Source: Salinibacter altiplanensis (GTDB lineage Bacteria; Bacteroidota; Rhodothermia; Rhodothermales; Salinibacteraceae). Taken from it: a DNA stretch of 63,993 nt. The position numbers and the translations under genes are program-made. Positions 17,393-26,004 of the stretch are shown one piece after another. Location of the stretch: NCBI RefSeq assembly GCF_002894645.1, contig NZ_NCQY01000009.1, positions 1 to 63,993 of the forward strand. The letters are read 5' to 3'. The notes under the pieces were generated by a model, which was not told the origin of the DNA, searched no databases, and worked only from the letters and a program-made list of their open reading frames with translations. The first letter of the stretch is position 1, and each line of letters opens with the position of its first letter.

Positions 17393-19939
17393 ATGAGCGA
17401 GAACGTCCCATGGACTCTCAAGATGGCCTGGCGCGACAGCCGCGGCAGCCGCACACGCTTGGCCCTCTACCTCTCCGCGATGGTACTGGGCGTCGCGGCC
17501 CTGGTGGCCATTCGGGGGTTCGGGGAAAACCTGACGCAGACGGTCGACCGGGAGTCGAAAACACTTTTGGGGGCCGACCTGAAGATCGAGAGCGATTCGC
17601 CGCTTCGGGACTCGACCGAGGCGCTCCTCGACTCGATTGGTGGCACCCAGTCGCGCCGCGTATCGTTTGCGTCGATGGCCTACTTTCCCGCCACCGGCGG
17701 CACTCGGCTCTCCGCCGTGCGGGCCGTGGAGGGCGGCTTTCCGTTCTACGGCCCCCTGGAGACGCGCCCGGACGACGCGGCGGCCCGCTACCAGGATGAA
17801 GGCGGGGCGCTCGTGGACGGAGCGTTGCTGCGTCAGTTTGGGGTGGAGGTGGGCGACTCCGTCCAAATCGGAGACGTGCACTACCCCATCCTCGGAGAGC
17901 TGAAGCAGGCCCCGGGTGAATCCAGCTTTACCTCGGCTGCGAGTCCCCGCATCTACCTGCCCCGGGCTCGGCTCGACACGTCCCTCTTCGGCCGCGGGAG
18001 CCGCGTGGAGTACGAGGTGATGTTTGCGTTCGCGGAGGCCCGCGACGTTGAGGCCCTGATCGCGGAGATCGACCCGTACCTGGACCGGCACGACCTTGAT
18101 CTCGACACCGTCGAGGAGGCGGCCTCGGGCTGGCAGGATGGCCTCGGCGACCTGTACCGATTTCTGGGGCTCGCCGGGTTTGTGGCCTTGCTGCTGGGAA
18201 GCCTCGGCGTGGCGAGTGCGGTGCACGTGTACGTGCAGCGTCGCCTCACCTCGATCGCCGTCCTGCGCTGCCTGGGGTCGACGGCCGGACGCACGTTTCG
18301 CATCTACCTCGCCCAGGCCGGTGTGCTCGGCCTGATTGGAGCTGGGCTCGGCAGCCTCCTCGGTGTGGCCCTACAGGCCTTCGTGCCCCGCCTTCTGGCC
18401 GACTTCCTCCCCGTCGAGGTCAGCTTTGCGGTGTCGTGGACCGCCGTGGGCCTGGGGCTGGTCGTGGGCCTGGGCGTGACGCTCCTCTTCGCGCTGTGGC
18501 CCCTGCTGGAGGTGCGGGGCGTCTCGCCGCTCCAGGCGCTGCGAACCGAGGTGGACCCCTCCACCGGGGGCTGGCGCGACCCCGCCCGGTGGGCCGTGGC
18601 GGCCGCCGTGGCGGCCGCGGTCTCGGGCATCGCTGTGCTGCAGGCCCCCACCTGGGAAATTGGCCTCGGGTACGCCGCGGGCGTGGGCACTGTGTTCGGG
18701 GTGCTCGCCCTCGTGGCCCGCGGCATCATGGCGGGCGTGCGTCGCTTCTTTCCCACGTCCTGGTCCTACCCCTGGCGGCAGGGCCTGGCCAACCTGTACC
18801 GCCCCCACAACCAGACGACCGTCCTCCTGCTCACCCTGGGCCTGGGCGTCTTCCTCATCACCACCCTCGTGCTCGTGGAGCGCACGCTCCTGGAGCAGAT
18901 TCAGGTGGCCGGCGGCGAAAACCGGCCCAATCTCGTCCTGTTCGACATCCAGAATGATCAGGTCGACGGCGTCCGCGACGCGGTGGAGGCGGCGGGCGCT
19001 CCGGTCTTGGCCAGCGAGCCCATCGTGACGACGCGCCTGCAGGCCCTCCAGGGCCGCTCCCTTGAGGCCCTGCGGCAAGATTCGACGGTAGACGTGGACT
19101 GGGCGTACGAGCGCGAGTACCGCGTCACGTACCGCGACCGCCTCACCAAGAGCGAGACGGTCGTGGCGGGAGAGTTTGTCGGCGCCGTCGAGGGCAATCC
19201 GCTGCAGTCCGGCGAGGCCGTTCCGGTCTCGATGGAACAGAGCATGGCCCGCGAGGAGCTGAACGTGGGCCTTGGGGACACCCTCACGTTCGACGTTCAG
19301 GGCCGGCCCGTCACGACCTACATCTCTAGCCTGCGCGACGTAGACTGGCAGCGCGTCGGCACCAATTACTTCGTCGTCTTTCCGGAGGGCGTGCTCGGTT
19401 CGGCCCCGCAGACCCACGTCCTCCTCGGGCGCACCCCCAACGACGACGTGGCGGCCGCGGCGCAGCGGAACGTCGTTCAGGAATACCCGAACGTGTCCGC
19501 CATCGACTTGTCCCTCATTCTCTCCACCTTCCAGGACCTCTTCGGGCGCCTGGCCTACGTGATCCGGTTTATGGCCCTCTTTAGCGTGTTTACGGGACTC
19601 ATCGTGCTGGCCGGAGCGGTGGTGGTGAGCCGCTACCAGCGGGCCGAGGAGAGTGTGCTTTTGAAGACCCTGGGGGCTTCGCGCCGCACCGTACAGACCA
19701 TCATGACGGTGGAGTACCTTTTTCTCGGGGCCTTCGCGGCCGCGACGGGCCTGCTGCTCGCGCTGGCGGGTGCCTGGGGCCTCTCGTACTTTGTCTTCGA
19801 GGGCCCCTTCGTCGTCGCACCACTCGTGCTTCTCACGGCATTCGTACTCGCCGTGCTCGTGACCATCGGCATCGGCCTCTGGAACAGCCGCGGCCTGTAC
19901 GACCGCCCGCCGCTCGATGTGCTCCGGACGGAGACGTAG
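17393..19939 (+). CDS. Large FtsX/MacB-type ABC transporter permease (YbbP-like)
   Basis: 848 residues from ATG 17393. The N-terminal membrane helix (LALYLSAMVLGVAALVAI) is followed by a large extracytoplasmic domain (about 40-250). An FtsX core holds three helices (about 260-385), two central helices come next (about 400-450), then an FtsX-like helix with TTVLLLTLGLGVFLITTLV (about 480). A second extracytoplasmic domain and a C-terminal FtsX core (VLLKTLGASRRTVQTIMTVE, about 755-775) follow, ending PPLDVLRTET. This duplicated layout matches YbbP-type permeases that work with a YbbA-like ATPase. No such ATPase gene adjoins it here. Likely role: lipid, lipoprotein or peptide handling at the inner membrane. 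Confidence 0.88.
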   Translation: MSENVPWTLKMAWRDSRGSRTRLALYLSAMVLGVAALVAIRGFGENLTQTVDRESKTLLGADLKIESDSPLRDSTEALLDSIGGTQSRRVSFASMAYFPATGGTRLSAVRAVEGGFPFYGPLETRPDDAAARYQDEGGALVDGALLRQFGVEVGDSVQIGDVHYPILGELKQAPGESSFTSAASPRIYLPRARLDTSLFGRGSRVEYEVMFAFAEARDVEALIAEIDPYLDRHDLDLDTVEEAASGWQDGLGDLYRFLGLAGFVALLLGSLGVASAVHVYVQRRLTSIAVLRCLGSTAGRTFRIYLAQAGVLGLIGAGLGSLLGVALQAFVPRLLADFLPVEVSFAVSWTAVGLGLVVGLGVTLLFALWPLLEVRGVSPLQALRTEVDPSTGGWRDPARWAVAAAVAAAVSGIAVLQAPTWEIGLGYAAGVGTVFGVLALVARGIMAGVRRFFPTSWSYPWRQGLANLYRPHNQTTVLLLTLGLGVFLITTLVLVERTLLEQIQVAGGENRPNLVLFDIQNDQVDGVRDAVEAAGAPVLASEPIVTTRLQALQGRSLEALRQDSTVDVDWAYEREYRVTYRDRLTKSETVVAGEFVGAVEGNPLQSGEAVPVSMEQSMAREELNVGLGDTLTFDVQGRPVTTYISSLRDVDWQRVGTNYFVVFPEGVLGSAPQTHVLLGRTPNDDVAAAAQRNVVQEYPNVSAIDLSLILSTFQDLFGRLAYVIRFMALFSVFTGLIVLAGAVVVSRYQRAEESVLLKTLGASRRTVQTIMTVEYLFLGAFAAATGLLLALAGAWGLSYFVFEGPFVVAPLVLLTAFVLAVLVTIGIGLWNSRGLYDRPPLDVLRTET

Positions 19940-20049
19940 TAGCCCCGCGCGGATCTGAGGGCCCCATCCAACAGTCTCGTGCCCCCCGTGGGACCATCGT
20001 GCGGGGTCCGTCGCATTTCGTCCCCTCGCCTCTTCAAACTGCCCCTGCC

Positions 20050-20235
20050 ATGAACGTCCGCGAGCAGACGTTTACGTGCCCACACTGCTGGGAAACAACC
20101 GCCGTCCTCCTCGATCCGTCGGTGCGCGAACAGACCTACATCGAGGACTGCGGCGTCTGTTGCCGCCCCCTTCAGGTTCACGTCGTTGCACAGGGCGGCC
20201 GCGTCGTGTCGTTCGACGTGCAGCCGACCCAGTAG
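20050..20235 (+). CDS. CPXCG-motif cysteine-rich zinc protein
   Basis: 61 residues from ATG 20050. Two Cys pairs, TCPHCWE (10-16) and DCGVCCRP, match the small Cys-rich CPXG family, whose order is CPxC, about 20 residues, CxxC, then strands ending in F. Here the first pair is C-P-H-C and the spacing is kept. It is probably a one-zinc ribbon of unknown role. It sits 110 bp after the permease gene and 143 bp before the YggS-like gene. Confidence 0.85.
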   Translation: MNVREQTFTCPHCWETTAVLLDPSVREQTYIEDCGVCCRPLQVHVVAQGGRVVSFDVQPTQ

Positions 20236-20378
20236 AGGCCGACGCCAGCCCAGCGAGGCACGCACCGCACTCGGCTCGTTCGGCCGTGCGAAACACCCGT
20301 ACGGGATCATGCGCGCCGCTGCCGAGATACCAGTTCCCGACCCGCAACGGCTTCCCAACACACGCCCCCGTTCCGCAC

Positions 20379-21137
20379 ATGAGCAAGATCCCGGATGCCA
20401 CCCCGGAGGTGGAGGCCCAAATCCGCCCCGAGGCCGTCGAGGAACGCGTCCAGTCCGTCCGTAAGCGCATCGTTCAGGCCTGCGAGCGGGCCGGGCGGTC
20501 CCCCGACGAGATCACAGTGGTCGCCGTCTCCAAGACGTTTCCGATGCAGGCCATTGAATCCGGGACGGACACGGGCCTGGAGCACTTTGGCGAAAACCGG
20601 GCCCGACAGCTCCGCGACAAGGCCAAGGCCCGCCCCGGGGCCTTTGAAGGCGGCGACGTAACGTGGCACATGGTGGGCCATCTGCAAAGAAACAAAGCCA
20701 AGTTCATCGCCCGCCACGCCGACTGGTTCGACGCGCTCGACAGTCCCCGCCTGGCGGCGGCACTCAACAAACGGGCCGCGAAGAACGACCGCGTGCTCCC
20801 GTGCCTGGTGCAGGTCAACATCACCGGCGACGAGCAAAAATACGGCCTCGCCCTGTCCGAAACGCACGACTACCTCGACCACTGTGCGCAGTACGACCAC
20901 CTTGCCGTCGAGGGGCTCATGGCCCTCGGCTCGTTCGTGGACGATCCCGAAGAGGTGCGGGGCGAATTCCAAAAGATGCGGGCGCTGTTCGAGACGTACG
21001 ACGCGTCCGACAACCCGCAGGTGGAGATGAGCGAGCTCTCCATCGGAATGAGCAACGACTTCGAGGTGGCCATCGAAGAGGGGAGCACCATGATCCGGCT
21101 CGGCACCTCCATCTTCGGGCCTCGCGACTACGAATAG
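20379..21137 (+). CDS. YggS/PLPBP family PLP-binding protein
   Basis: 252 residues from ATG 20379. A fold-type III alanine-racemase-like barrel without the second domain. The Schiff-base lysine is in VVAVSKTFP. Other signatures are HFGENRARQLRDKA, WHMVGHLQRNKAKFI, LVQVNITGDEQKYG, GLMALGSF, and the C-terminal LSIGMSNDFEVAIEEGST with MIRLGTSIFGPRDY, which binds the PLP phosphate. The family maintains PLP and amino-acid homeostasis rather than catalysing a defined reaction. It is followed 196 bp later by a DivIVA gene, a pairing also seen near yggS/sepF/divIVA blocks of other bacteria. Confidence 0.95.
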   Translation: MSKIPDATPEVEAQIRPEAVEERVQSVRKRIVQACERAGRSPDEITVVAVSKTFPMQAIESGTDTGLEHFGENRARQLRDKAKARPGAFEGGDVTWHMVGHLQRNKAKFIARHADWFDALDSPRLAAALNKRAAKNDRVLPCLVQVNITGDEQKYGLALSETHDYLDHCAQYDHLAVEGLMALGSFVDDPEEVRGEFQKMRALFETYDASDNPQVEMSELSIGMSNDFEVAIEEGSTMIRLGTSIFGPRDYE

Positions 21138-21333
21138 ACGGTCTCTCGACTGGCACGGCCCGCCCCAAAAACCGCACGGTCCCGAAACAGTGTCAGGGCA
21201 GTCCGGTGAACACAGGGTAGCCCCCTGAACCCTCCCAGGCGTCCCACGGCGGATCGGAACGGGCCACCGATCCGGCCGAGACCGCCAACCGTCCCGTTGC
21301 CGCACGCACTTCCACGTCCAACTCGCCATTGCT

Positions 21334-22506
21334 ATGACCCTCACGCCGCTCGACATTCGAAAGCGAGAGTTTGACCGGAGCCTCCGTGGGTACGACCCCC
21401 AGGAGGTGGACGCGTTTCTCGACATGGTGGCCGAGCAGTGGGAGGACCTGGAGGACGAGCGCCGCCGCCTGAACAACAAGGTGGAGGAGCTGCAGAGCCG
21501 GATGGATCACTACCAAGAGGTTGAGGAGGCCCTCCAGCAGGCCCTCGATCAGACGCGCAAGAACGCCGAGGAGACGCTCGAAAATGCCCGCGAGAAGGCT
21601 GAGCGCATCGTGCAGGACGCCAAGGCGAAGGCGGCGGACATCGAGCGGGACGCGGAACGCGTTGTGGAGGATGCCAAGGAGCAGGCCCAGGAAATCAAGC
21701 ACGACGCAGAAACCGAGCGCGAGCAGTTGCGGGCCGACATCCGCCATCTCCAAGGCCGGCGTACCGAGGCGGTGGCGCAGTTGCGGGCCTTCCTGAACTC
21801 GGAGCTGGAGGTGCTGGAAGCATACGACGAGGGCCGTGACCCATCCGGGGCGGTGTCGACGGCGTCTCCAGGACCGGCCTCAACAAGCGGGCAGTCCTCG
21901 TCTCCGCCGTCGTCCGATCCCACGTCCCCATCGGGCCCAGGCGCCCCCTCTGAGGCTCCCCCGGCCCCGGACCTGGCCCAGGCAGACGACGCGCCCGACG
22001 CGGGCTCGGAACCAGCCCCCGACGCGGAACCGGACGATCCCGACCTCCCGTCCCTAGACACCACAGACGCAATGGACGCCGATGCGCCATCCGGCCCGGA
22101 CCGCGTCGACGATCCCGATTCGCCCGAAGCGGATTCCGCGTCGGGCGAGGAGGGCGTTCCCGAGACCGAGCCTCTAACCGACATCGGTTCTTCGACCGAC
22201 GCGTCGGCCGAGGACCGCTCCCCGTCGGAGAGCTTCACGGACGATGTCGCGGAGGAGGAGCCCCCCCCCACTCCATCCGAGGATGATCCTCCCGAGCAGG
22301 ATGAGCAGGACACTTCTCCAACCGATGCACCGGAGAGCTCCCTCGATGCCCCGGGCCACGAGACGGACGACGCCTCCGACGAGCCCACGTCCGACACGGG
22401 ACAGGCGGACGAGTCGAACGCTGAGAATCGTTCCGGGGACGATGAGGACGGCACCTCCGAGGAGATCGAGAAGATCTGGAATATCCTCGAAGACATGGAA
22501 GACTAA
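21334..22506 (+). CDS. DivIVA domain protein with very acidic C-terminal tail
   Basis: 390 residues from ATG 21334. Residues 1-50 are a classic DivIVA N-terminal lipid-binding domain: LTPLDIRKREFDRSLRGYDP and QEVDAFLDMVAEQWEDL. A coiled coil runs to about 160 (RKNAEETLENAREKAERIVQ and similar). The last roughly 210 residues are Asp/Glu/Ser/Pro-rich, essentially disordered, ending EEIEKIWNILEDMED. The family marks curved membranes at poles and septa. The YggS-DivIVA order suggests a cell-division or growth setting. The tail is far longer than in usual DivIVA proteins and fits halophilic adaptation or a partner-binding tether. Confidence 0.9.
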   Translation: MTLTPLDIRKREFDRSLRGYDPQEVDAFLDMVAEQWEDLEDERRRLNNKVEELQSRMDHYQEVEEALQQALDQTRKNAEETLENAREKAERIVQDAKAKAADIERDAERVVEDAKEQAQEIKHDAETEREQLRADIRHLQGRRTEAVAQLRAFLNSELEVLEAYDEGRDPSGAVSTASPGPASTSGQSSSPPSSDPTSPSGPGAPSEAPPAPDLAQADDAPDAGSEPAPDAEPDDPDLPSLDTTDAMDADAPSGPDRVDDPDSPEADSASGEEGVPETEPLTDIGSSTDASAEDRSPSESFTDDVAEEEPPPTPSEDDPPEQDEQDTSPTDAPESSLDAPGHETDDASDEPTSDTGQADESNAENRSGDDEDGTSEEIEKIWNILEDMED

Positions 22507-22565
22507 ACGTCGGTTCTCTTCGCTTCCCGTTCCTCCGCGACAGACTGCCCTCGATTCCCCTCCGC

Positions 22566-23423
22566 ATGCCTACCGCCCCCAACCCCTCCGCCCTCACCGC
22601 CGACGGAACCGCCGCGTACAAACAACAGGTCGACGCGGCGGCCGCCGCCCTCCCCGACGTGGACACGGCTGCCCCAACCGTGGCCGTCGTTCACGACACA
22701 GACCTGGCCCCCATCTTGCAAGAGGGGCGAGTTGAGCGTACGATTCCACACACCGACCTTCCACACTACCCCGGGACGAGTGGAACGCTGACGGTGGGCA
22801 CCCTGGGCGAAACCCGGGTCGTGGAGCTGGACCAGACCCTCCACCTCTACGAGGGGCACACGCCCCGAGAGGTCGCCTTTCCCGTGCGCATGCTCGCCGC
22901 TGCGGGCGTGGATACCCTGTTTCTGACGGCAACAGCCGGCAGCGTTGCCGCACAGGCGGGTCGTGGCGACCTGATGCTACTGACCGACCACATTAACTTT
23001 CAGGGACAGAATCCGCTCGTGGGGCCCAATGTGGACGCCTGGGGCCCACGCTTTCCCGACATGACCGAGCCCTACGACGCAGCCCTCCGGCGACGGGCCA
23101 GCGATGCGGCACGAAGCGAAGGGATCTCTCTGCGAAAAGGCATCTACCTCGGCCTTCTCGGGCCTCACCGTGAAACAATGGCCGAGCACCGGATGGCCCA
23201 CCGGCTAGGGGCCGACGCCGTGGGGACGGGCGTGGTGCCCGAGGTGCTTGCGGCCCGCCACATGGACCTGAACGTCATGGCCCTTGCGCTCCTCACGGCT
23301 CAGCACCGGACGGGGGGACCCGTCGCTTCCTCCCCCGACGGCACGGTCCTCCAGACGGGCCGTTCACAGATGCACCGTCTCCTTGCAACGCTGATCGGCG
23401 GAGACGCCACGGAATCTCGATAA
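22566..23423 (+). CDS. Purine nucleoside phosphorylase homologue with altered active site
   Basis: 285 residues from ATG 22566. The fold signatures of trimeric PNP are clear: LHLYEGHTPREVAFPVR, LLTDHINFQGQNPLVGPN, GPRFPDMTEPYD, GPHRETMAEHRM and LGADAVGTGVVPEVLAARHM. Several residues that bind phosphate in human PNP are not seen. The GSGLG loop is replaced by HDTDLAP, PGHAG is PGTSG (H64 to T), GRFH is QTLH (R84 to T), and VGMS is VGTG (S220 to G). The base-binding Asn of ITNK is LTAQ. E201 and Y88 equivalents are kept. It could be an inactive or repurposed paralogue, so I give no gene symbol. It lies between divIVA and thrA. Confidence 0.85.
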   Translation: MPTAPNPSALTADGTAAYKQQVDAAAAALPDVDTAAPTVAVVHDTDLAPILQEGRVERTIPHTDLPHYPGTSGTLTVGTLGETRVVELDQTLHLYEGHTPREVAFPVRMLAAAGVDTLFLTATAGSVAAQAGRGDLMLLTDHINFQGQNPLVGPNVDAWGPRFPDMTEPYDAALRRRASDAARSEGISLRKGIYLGLLGPHRETMAEHRMAHRLGADAVGTGVVPEVLAARHMDLNVMALALLTAQHRTGGPVASSPDGTVLQTGRSQMHRLLATLIGGDATESR

Positions 23424-23538
23424 GTGCTTTCCGTCCGTTCCGTGTGGGAGCACGAGGCGACCGGCGCCGTGCCTCTCCCGTTTCACGAGGCACCCATCGC
23501 CCGCCACGGGTCCACTTCTCCAACGCGCTCCTCCCCGC

Positions 23539-26004
23539 ATGAGATCGTCCGTCCCTGCCTCCACCGACTGGCGCGTTCACAAGTTTGGCGGGACCAGCCT
23601 TGCCACACCGGCACGCATCCGGCATGTGGCCGACCTTCTTGGCGACCGTGACCGTCCCCTTGCGGTCGTGGTCTCCGCCGTGAGCGGGGTTACAGACCGC
23701 CTGCTCGCCCTCGCCGAGAACGCGCACACCGACCCCGACGGCCTGTCCGATCGCCTTCAATCGCTCCGCGACGATCAGCGGGCCATGGTCTCCGACCTGC
23801 TCGACAGGGACACCGCGGCCTCTGTGCTGGACGCGCTGGACCAGGACCTGGACGACCTGGCCGACGTGCTCCGGGCCACCCACCTCATGGGCACGGCCCC
23901 CGACACGACGCGCGCCCTCGTGGCTGGATACGGCGAGCTGTGGTCTACCCGCCTGCTCGGCGGGGTGCTGCGCAGCCGGGGCCTGTCGGCCGCCGTCTGC
24001 GACGCCCGCGAGGTGCTCGTCGTTACCCACGAGAAGCTGGGGCCTGTGGTCGACTGGGACGCCACCCGAAGGCAGTTTGCCAACTGGCGAGCCGCCCGCA
24101 GCGAGTTCGACATTCTCGTCGCCACCGGTTTCATCGCCACCACGCCCGACGGGGTGCCCACCACGCTGGGCCGGAACGGCTCGGACCACTCCGCCGCCCT
24201 CTTTGCCTCGCTGCTCGGGGCCGAGGCACTCACGATCTGGACGGACACGGACGGGGTGATGAGTGCCGATCCCCGGTACGTCCCCGATGCCCGTCGCCTC
24301 GATGTCTTGTCCTACGAAGAGGCCCTGGAGATGGCCTACTTCGGCGCCGGCGTCATTCATCCGCGCACGCTGTCGCCGGCCATCGAGCACGAGATTCCAA
24401 TCACGATCCGCAACACCTTTGCGCCCGACCGGCCCGGCACCCGCATTCACCTCGAGGACGACGGCGCGTCGGTCGTTAAGGGCTTCTCGACAATCGACGA
24501 CGTGGCCCTTCTCAACCTTGAGGGCAGCGGCATGATCGGGGTGCCCGGCATTGCCCGGCGGCTCTTCGACGCATTGGAGGACGAAGGCGTGTCCGTCATT
24601 CTCATCTCGCAGGGCAGCTCCGAGCACTCGATCTGTTTCGCCGTGCCGCAGGCAGAGGCGAAGGTCGCCCGCAAGGCCGCCGAGCAGGCCTTCTACGCCG
24701 AGCTGGATCGCGGCCAGCTCCGGACGGTCGAGCTGGTGCCCGACTGCAGCATCCTCGCCGTCGTGGGGGACCGCATGACCGGCACGCCCGGCGTCGCCGC
24801 CACCTTCTTCGGAGCCCTCGGCGAGGCCAGCGTCAACGTGCGAGCCATCGCGCAGGGCTCCTCGGAGCGCAACATCTCGGCCGTCGTGGACGGGGACGAC
24901 GCCCACCGCGCCCTGCGGGCCGTCCACGCGGGCTTTTATCTCTCGAAGCGGACCCTGTCCATCGGCGTCCTCGGGGCCGGAAACGTCGGCGCGGCCCTGC
25001 TTGACCAGATCCGTACCGAGGCCGATCGGCTCCGCGACGAACAGGACATCGATCTCCGCGTGCGGGGGATCGCCACGTCCTCGCGCATGCTCCGGGCCGA
25101 ACAACGCCTCGACCTTGGGACGTGGCGCGACGACTTGGCCGAGGGCGACGCGGCCGATCTCGACGCCTTCGTCGACCACGTGCAGACGGACTACCACCCA
25201 CACACGGCGATCGTCGACTGCACGGCCAGCGGGGCCATCGCCCGCCACTATCGGGGGTGGCTGGAGCGTGGCATTCACGTGGTCACGCCCAACAAGAAGG
25301 CCAATACCGGTGCCTGGGACGCGTACCAGGCCCTCCAGGCCGCCAGCCGAGGGCCCGGGCCCCAGTACCGCTACGAGACGACGGTCGGGGCGGGCCTGCC
25401 CATTCTGCGCACCCTCAACAGCCTCACCGAGACGGGCGACCAGGTACACCGGATTGAGGGCATCCTCTCCGGCACCCTGTCGTATCTCTTCAACGCGTTT
25501 GACGGCGAGCGGCCCTTCTCCGCGATTCTTCGTCAGGCCAGGGACGAAGGCTTCACCGAGCCCGACCCCCGCGACGACCTGTCCGGCATGGACGTGGCCC
25601 GCAAGGTGGTCATCCTGGCACGCGAGATGGGCGTGTCGCTGGGGCTGGACGAGGTGTCCGTGGACGGGCTCGTGCCGGGGCCGCTCCGCGACGGCTCGGT
25701 CCCGTCGTTTCTGGATCGCCTCCCCGAACATGACGCGGACATGACCAAGCTCCTCCGGGACGCCCGGGCCAACGACAAGGTCCTCCGCTTCGTAGGCAGC
25801 GTCACGCGCGACGGCGACGCCTCGGTCCGCCTGCGCCGCTACCCCGTCGACCATGCCTTCGCCCGCATCAATCACACGGACAACATCGTCCGCTTTCAGA
25901 CAGACCGGTACGCCGACACGCCTCTCATCGTGCAGGGCCCCGGCGCCGGCCCCCAGGTGACCGCCGCAGGCGTCTTCACCGACCTGCTCCGCCTAATCTC
26001 GTAG
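23539..26004 (+). CDS. thrA: Bifunctional aspartokinase/homoserine dehydrogenase
   Basis: 821 residues from ATG 23539. The aspartokinase domain (about 10-290) starts HKFGGTSLATPARI and includes VATGFIATTPDG, TTLGRNGSDHSAALFA and WTDTDGVMSADPRYVPDAR. Two ACT segments follow (about 320-460; NLEGSGMIGVPGIARRLFDA, GDRMTGTPGVAATFFGAL). The homoserine dehydrogenase domain (about 473-821) starts IGVLGAGNVGAALLDQI, with HVVTPNKKANTG, YRYETTVGAGLPI and GILSGTLSYLFN. It performs the first and third steps of the aspartate family and is usually feedback-inhibited by threonine through the ACT domains. The thrB gene follows at 181 bp. Confidence 0.97.
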   Translation: MRSSVPASTDWRVHKFGGTSLATPARIRHVADLLGDRDRPLAVVVSAVSGVTDRLLALAENAHTDPDGLSDRLQSLRDDQRAMVSDLLDRDTAASVLDALDQDLDDLADVLRATHLMGTAPDTTRALVAGYGELWSTRLLGGVLRSRGLSAAVCDAREVLVVTHEKLGPVVDWDATRRQFANWRAARSEFDILVATGFIATTPDGVPTTLGRNGSDHSAALFASLLGAEALTIWTDTDGVMSADPRYVPDARRLDVLSYEEALEMAYFGAGVIHPRTLSPAIEHEIPITIRNTFAPDRPGTRIHLEDDGASVVKGFSTIDDVALLNLEGSGMIGVPGIARRLFDALEDEGVSVILISQGSSEHSICFAVPQAEAKVARKAAEQAFYAELDRGQLRTVELVPDCSILAVVGDRMTGTPGVAATFFGALGEASVNVRAIAQGSSERNISAVVDGDDAHRALRAVHAGFYLSKRTLSIGVLGAGNVGAALLDQIRTEADRLRDEQDIDLRVRGIATSSRMLRAEQRLDLGTWRDDLAEGDAADLDAFVDHVQTDYHPHTAIVDCTASGAIARHYRGWLERGIHVVTPNKKANTGAWDAYQALQAASRGPGPQYRYETTVGAGLPILRTLNSLTETGDQVHRIEGILSGTLSYLFNAFDGERPFSAILRQARDEGFTEPDPRDDLSGMDVARKVVILAREMGVSLGLDEVSVDGLVPGPLRDGSVPSFLDRLPEHDADMTKLLRDARANDKVLRFVGSVTRDGDASVRLRRYPVDHAFARINHTDNIVRFQTDRYADTPLIVQGPGAGPQVTAAGVFTDLLRLIS

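Follow-up and report, generated by a model that had tools for sequence, protein, structure and literature searches.

The window analysed here, a whole stretch of 63,993 nucleotides from Salinibacter altiplanensis, carries a gene that raises the question of what keeps a purine nucleoside phosphorylase (PNP) homologue in being once its active site is gone. The gene (22566..23423, + strand) is an intact open reading frame with an ATG start. It encodes a protein of 285 aa, classed here as a type C PNP-fold pseudoenzyme and proposed to be a loop-donating subunit. Its homology to PNP clearly exceeds what chance would give. Pfam detects PNP_UDP_1 (E 3.7e-41) and no other enzyme family in the protein. 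Its score with the NCBIfam model PRK08202 is 229 bits (cut-off 218), and 51 distinct solved sequences match it at E <= 1e-3. The AlphaFold model (56 sequences as input) has a mean pLDDT of 91.3; VIA-align superposes it on 4m1e with a Z of 34.9 and an rmsd of 1.9 over 263 residues, and TM-scores against solved trimeric PNPs are about 0.8-0.9. The protein is thus predicted to have the trimeric PNP fold, and its family score together with this predicted fold places it in the trimeric PNP-I group. Human and calf PNP (class I, TIGR01697 / PRK08202; PDB 4m1e, 4lna, 8swu) share the fold and an interface loop with it at about 32-36% identity. However, phosphate- and base-site residues are substituted in the window protein, and enzyme status should not be assumed despite the equivalog score. 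Since the PRK08202 model gives an enzyme name to dead proteins, automatic annotation is misleading. Another dead protein, L040, is also labelled purine-nucleoside phosphorylase by this equivalog (246 bits, cut-off 218).

The residue map was drawn by sequence alignment to human PNP, and the reference sequence used for the numbering aligns with PDB 7zsl along its full length of 289 residues. The structural programs yielded ranges and scores but no residue pairs. All features below lie on the + strand. The phosphate loop is degenerate, DTDLA replacing G(S/T)GLG (22695..22709), with Thr45 at the position of human Ser33. The His64 loop is five residues shorter and has lost His64 (PGT, 22770..22778), whose equivalent is either deleted or a Thr; one alignment places a five-residue gap here. 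Thr91 occupies the position of the phosphate-binding Arg84 (22836..22838), Ala122-Thr123 that of Asn115-Ala116 (22929..22934), Thr221-Gly222 that of Met219-Ser220 (23226..23231) and Ala245 that of the base-binding Asn243 (23298..23300); human His257 aligns with Pro257. The first-pass annotation had described a PNP homologue with replaced residues at Ser33, His64, Arg84, Ser220 and Asn243. The last four losses are borne out, and Asn115, Met219 and His257 can be added to them. Ser33 does not belong to the list: Thr is also found here in intact relatives, and the loss around this position concerns the flanking glycines rather than Thr itself. Only Thr45 is conservative among the four phosphate-site positions. 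At the base site Glu203 is retained, as human Glu201, but Asn243 is not. Glu201 and Tyr88 (Y95) had rightly been reported as present, and His86 (H93), Glu89 (E96) and Thr242 (T244) are retained as well.

The conserved feature that had been overlooked is the interface loop FQGQNPLVGPNVDAWGPRFPDMTEPYDA (22998..23081, + strand; residues about 145-172, aligned with human 141-168), which is intact and includes Phe163 (23052..23054, + strand), the equivalent of human Phe159. According to the description of calf PNP in PMC9916683, the monomer-monomer interface is formed mainly by loop 141-168 of one monomer and by residues 87-91 and 196-205 of its neighbour (here called the socket). Phe159 enters the active site of the neighbouring subunit and participates in it, and a figure legend pairs Asn137 and Asn145 with Asn199 and Glu205 of the neighbour (PMC9916683). 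The same source describes a calf PNP mutant with six interface alanines as mainly monomeric, with an activity of 1e-5 to 1e-6 of wild type. The human Phe159->Ala change alone leaves the protein trimeric and its activity without significant change (PMC9916683), so that Phe159 alone is not essential.

A second, canonical PNP, the presence of which had been proposed as a check, exists in the same genome (99.75% complete). This protein, called A (G000:C15:620480), is the sole other PNP-I protein there and is located on a different contig from C. It shows all the expected motifs (GSGLG, EGHSG, QGRVHLYEG, NSAGG, NYET, GMSTVPEV and TITN) and has no interface loop. Four further superfamily members were found. 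One is an MTA/SAH nucleosidase, another a weak nucleosidase-like protein, and the remaining two score far below every DeoD or MTAP cut-off. The genome yielded no DeoD-type protein above its cut-off and no PNP-I besides A and C. As in prozyme-type systems, a dead homologue stands beside a live paralogue in one genome, the latter judged live by its residues.

PNP-I matches were surveyed first in 60 genomes and then in 114 genomes of the order Rhodothermales. The counts rest on strong matches among those listed and leave aside weaker additional ones with E values of about 1e-6 to 1e-3 (for instance G015:C2, G017:C37, G025:C67, G030:C19, G046:C278, G083:C32); G017, G019, G022 and G087 have only fragments of one PNP copy. 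Each protein was scored at nine catalytic positions and for the loop. Two PNP-I types occur in the order: A, and a partner whose active form is called B and whose dead form, in the family of the window genome, is C. Partners comprise 90 intact proteins, 22 dead or largely dead ones (0-6 of 9 residues) and one fragment, that of G022, which is cut by a contig end and was set aside although scored dead by the script. By motif the loop is full in 87 of the intact partners, with one motif residue changed in the other 3, and full in all 22 dead partners. Of the A proteins, 12 have a full loop, 18 a partial one and 71 are full-length with the loop lost, to which four fragments from three genomes were added as lost. 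Each of the 71 full-length loopless A proteins carries 9 of 9 scored catalytic residues. Loop loss in A thus concerns 74 of the 104 genomes with A (3 of the 74 judged on fragments; the A of G087 is cut inside the loop).

The two proteins occur in the following combinations; the genomes behind these counts are not independent of one another. Full-loop A (12 genomes) is accompanied by an intact partner in 10 and by no partner in 2, and partial-loop A by an intact partner in all 18. Among the 74 genomes with lost-loop A, 53 have an intact partner, 18 a dead partner only, 1 a fragment, and in 2 no partner was found. A dead partner was never the only partner beside a full- or partial-loop A (0/30 genomes). 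In 18 genomes, including that of the window, no protein with both active site and loop was found, and a loopless A co-occurs with a dead loop-bearing partner. A was not found in ten genomes, nine of which have an intact partner; the tenth, G025 (56% complete), has a dead one. Genomes with a single PNP-I type have a complete protein, either A with its loop (G027, G075) or an intact partner (nine genomes); only G025, G098 and G099 depart from this, each being an incomplete or gapped genome. In the class outside the order, 16 proteins from 14 genomes were chosen from the listed matches and include 12 intact partner-type proteins from 12 genomes; G242 and G243, of another family of the class, each have a loopless A and an intact partner. 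The A proteins of family f15 (L326-L331, L348-L352) have a loop reduced to about 25 residues over human 131-170, the most extreme loss seen. The partners of G087-G089 (L261, L268, L269) are on a long branch and show His64 -> Asp and Asn115 -> Gly but are otherwise complete; they may represent a stage between an intact and a dead partner.

The two genomes with loopless A and no detected partner, G098 and G099, belong to genus g31, as does G054, whose dead partner is extremely diverged. With this family f5 partner as query, only weak matches (E 0.006 and 0.2) were obtained in them, and a DNA pattern for GxRFPDM hit only stretches that encode unrelated proteins or no protein at all. The contig of G099 stops 25 bases past the DivIVA match, just before the partner slot, and a search of G098 with the neighbouring DivIVA as query did not find the divIVA gene. 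Both genomes are uninformative on partner absence and were counted as no support.

Degenerate copies with an open frame are carried by 18 of the 27 genomes of the window family (all 13 genomes of its genus plus 5 more) and therefore do not result from chance or sequencing error; in the other 9 an intact partner is present, whole or as a fragment. A broad scan of related loci (80 fetched, 1 without usable frame, 79 scored) gave 72 canonical or nearly canonical sequences, the other 7 being window-type copies. Dead partners are found in three families: f1, that of the window (18), f5 (G044, G054, G101) and f9 (G055), and other members of f5 and f9 have intact partners. The window protein and the 17 other dead members of its family form one branch (99/96), each being degenerate in a different way. 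In a tree of 65 partners the dead/intact label changes three times (bootstrap range 3-4). The f5/f9 branches are very long, some of them group across family borders, and a single origin is compatible with the well-supported branches taken by themselves. Based on this tree with its very long branches, on gene position and on family membership, dead partners probably arose at least three times.

The partner gene has a preferred location. In the window it follows a DivIVA-domain gene (21334..22506, + strand; Pfam PF05103, E 4.4e-31), the usual upstream neighbour by synteny. The usual second gene upstream (20076..21137, + strand, start uncertain; Ala_racemase_N, Pfam PF01168) is of a type that we take to be yggS/PLPBP. 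Further upstream lies an FtsX/MacB-like permease gene (17393-19939), seen in 18/29 and 6/6 slot loci. The next gene downstream is, by Pfam and synteny, an aspartokinase-homoserine dehydrogenase of the thrA type (23539..26004, + strand), present in 16/29 slot loci. An 860-aa open reading frame antisense to this gene (23293-25875, - strand) is probably a shadow of G+C-rich codon use. Among the 40 loci with enough flank, the partner follows divIVA in 35 (29 + 6), and yggS precedes divIVA in 33 of these 35 (flank loci: window 17393-23423, L032-L055, L085-L089 and L369-L374). The dead partners of f5 and f9 are also located after divIVA, as are 17 of the 18 C proteins. The type B PNP of Rhodothermia (ITDECFPD type, e.g. 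G028 L085:5866-6732) shares this slot with the window gene but differs from C in that its active site and loop are both complete; C presumably descends from this active form.

Five partners are off-slot: the intact B of G008, G014, G021 and G023 and the dead copy of G018. The four B copies (L042, L052, L054, L056) form one clade (99/98), and an active partner may thus have been transferred horizontally. Three of their four genomes also have a dead C. The G018 copy (L057) is the most degenerate of the family (0 of 9) and the flank read includes no divIVA, yggS or thrA homologue; this copy seems to have left the slot. A predicted structure of it has a pLDDT of 86 and shows the same fold by secondary-structure order.

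We propose, with a probability of roughly two in three, that A and C form a PNP that is an obligate hetero-oligomer: the dead C would bind catalytic A, lend it a loop and thereby activate it. Each subunit of a trimeric PNP docks its long loop on the socket (87-91, 196-205) of the next, beside the active site. These roles would here be split between paralogues, A having the active site and socket without the loop, C having the loop but no active site and an incomplete socket. The loop of C would dock into A and keep its active site in shape. A, with its own loop gone, would have come to depend on its partner, and the partner, needed for its loop only, would have been free to lose catalysis. A similar A:B pairing may exist where the partner is still active. 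At the sequence level the data show reciprocal loss, co-occurrence, purifying selection that is strongest on the loop, and the same pattern in three families. Extended to the order as a whole, the scheme would make PNP of Rhodothermales often a hetero-oligomer, the loop function of A having been handed to a divIVA-linked partner whose catalysis was lost at least three times, giving rise to an obligate two-gene enzyme; we lean slightly towards this broader version. The 53 genomes in which loopless A stands beside a fully active partner count against pairing, since A may simply have another assembly; the placement of A and C on separate contigs in the window genome is a further point against it. 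Moreover, loop loss is common in A, and its coincidence with dead partners is therefore partly expected.

Such another assembly is the basis of an alternative that we regard as unlikely, although it is the best of the alternatives: C would be a homotrimeric pseudoenzyme with an unrelated role (scaffold, regulator or binding protein), and A would work alone as a loop-free assembly. The fully kept predicted fold agrees with it, and the usual location after divIVA could hint at another role. A homotrimer would be expected to preserve both interface faces. Retention was compared at sites conserved in at least 90% of the 90 intact partners. The f1 C proteins retain 0.94 of the loop, 0.68 of the socket, 0.40 of the catalytic sites and 0.64 of the rest. 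Their socket is partly lost, with Gly90, Gly197, Ala204 and Glu205 present in all 18, a conservation that favours the homotrimer. In f5/f9 dead partners, however, only 0.14 of the socket is left against 0.85 of the loop, with catalytic sites at 0.15 and the rest at 0.44. Loopless A proteins show the reverse (loop 0.29, socket 0.91, catalytic 0.95, rest 0.81; 73 rows, scored at sites that loop-bearing A proteins conserve). When Asn137 is counted with the loop, loop retention against all other sites is 0.95 v 0.58 in f1 (18 proteins, p 6e-6), 0.87 v 0.30 in f5 (3 proteins, p 2e-8) and 0.83 v 0.42 in f9 (1 protein, p 1e-3) by Mann-Whitney tests that take sites as independent. The contact pairs behave similarly: Asn137 is present in 22/22 dead partners, Asn145 in all of f1 and at 0.75 in f5/f9, and Glu205 is kept in A (0.96) but mostly lost in f5/f9 dead partners (0.25). 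A homotrimeric C also fails to explain the selective loss of the loop from A and the fact that loopless A was never found alone, except in the two genomes that are gapped at the locus.

A hetero-oligomer of A and C also agrees with the selection acting on C. Its dN/dS is 0.10-0.43 over 12 pairs, of which the 9 whose dS exceeds 0.4 give 0.16-0.30. These values are far below 1, and type C is under purifying selection; as in prozyme-type systems, this accompanies an intact (predicted) fold. For 15/15 pairs among six genomes of the genus, dN/dS is lower in the loop than in the remainder of the gene, in one pair by as little as 0.22 vs 0.23. In a mirror-tree comparison over 11 of the 13 genomes, the partial r of A and C given thrA is 0.79 and that of A and YggS given thrA 0.73, so the two are not separated. 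The first-pass annotation had offered three fates for the protein. That of a pseudoenzyme fits the catalytic residues lost differently in each relative, the kept fold, the purifying selection and the second complete site in A. That of a binding protein has two parts: a ligand binder finds no support, and binding to the active paralogue is supported indirectly.

The third fate, a hydrolase, is very improbable, as is any phosphate-independent nucleosidase or other enzyme. The window copy does have equivalents of Glu201, Tyr88 and His86, but among the 18 degenerate members of the family Glu201 is kept in 39% and Tyr88 and His86 each in 50%, and no new residue is conserved at their active site. 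Open frames in the dead partners of f5 span only 233-267 aa, and little of a match can be recognised in their N-terminal half. A neofunctional hydrolase was rejected on the lack of conserved site residues and on the Pfam result, which lists PNP_UDP_1 only. Just as improbable is a decaying gene without function, intact by chance: C does evolve fast (about 1 change per column on the branches of some members) and its dN/dS exceeds that of A (0.11-0.19) in 8/8 pairs compared, but we reject decay because of the low dN/dS and the loop, nearly invariant across lineages, together with open frames in 22/22 dead partners (that of G101 contains 10 consecutive N close to its end) and a C kept in all 13 genomes of the genus.

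Trimeric PNP is a textbook homotrimer and a drug target. If the proposed A:C enzyme exists, Rhodothermales would provide a natural series, with intermediates still alive, leading from a homomer to an obligate heteromer, and a case of a pseudoenzyme becoming indispensable. Among the open-licence papers listed, judged by titles and abstract openings, no description of a hetero-oligomeric PNP was found. Plant nucleoside phosphorylase-like vegetative and bark storage proteins resemble C as relatives without evidence of a nucleoside-salvage role, as described in PMC3751785. They differ from it by their storage role in plants. We know of no exchange of loop for active site in these proteins. A likeness to the proposed C is found in the trypanosomatid prozymes, where a dead paralogue pairs with a live enzyme and activates it. 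This activation is reported as experimentally demonstrated for AdoMetDC/prozyme and for deoxyhypusine synthase with its dead paralogue (PMC5201418, PMC3663545). The prozymes differ in that other enzymes are concerned, whereas the Rhodothermales split follows a visible exchange of loop and socket, recurs in several families and is known here from sequence. By this analogy, the mechanism itself would correspond to the known prozyme idea, and its hetero-oligomeric PNP form would be the new part.
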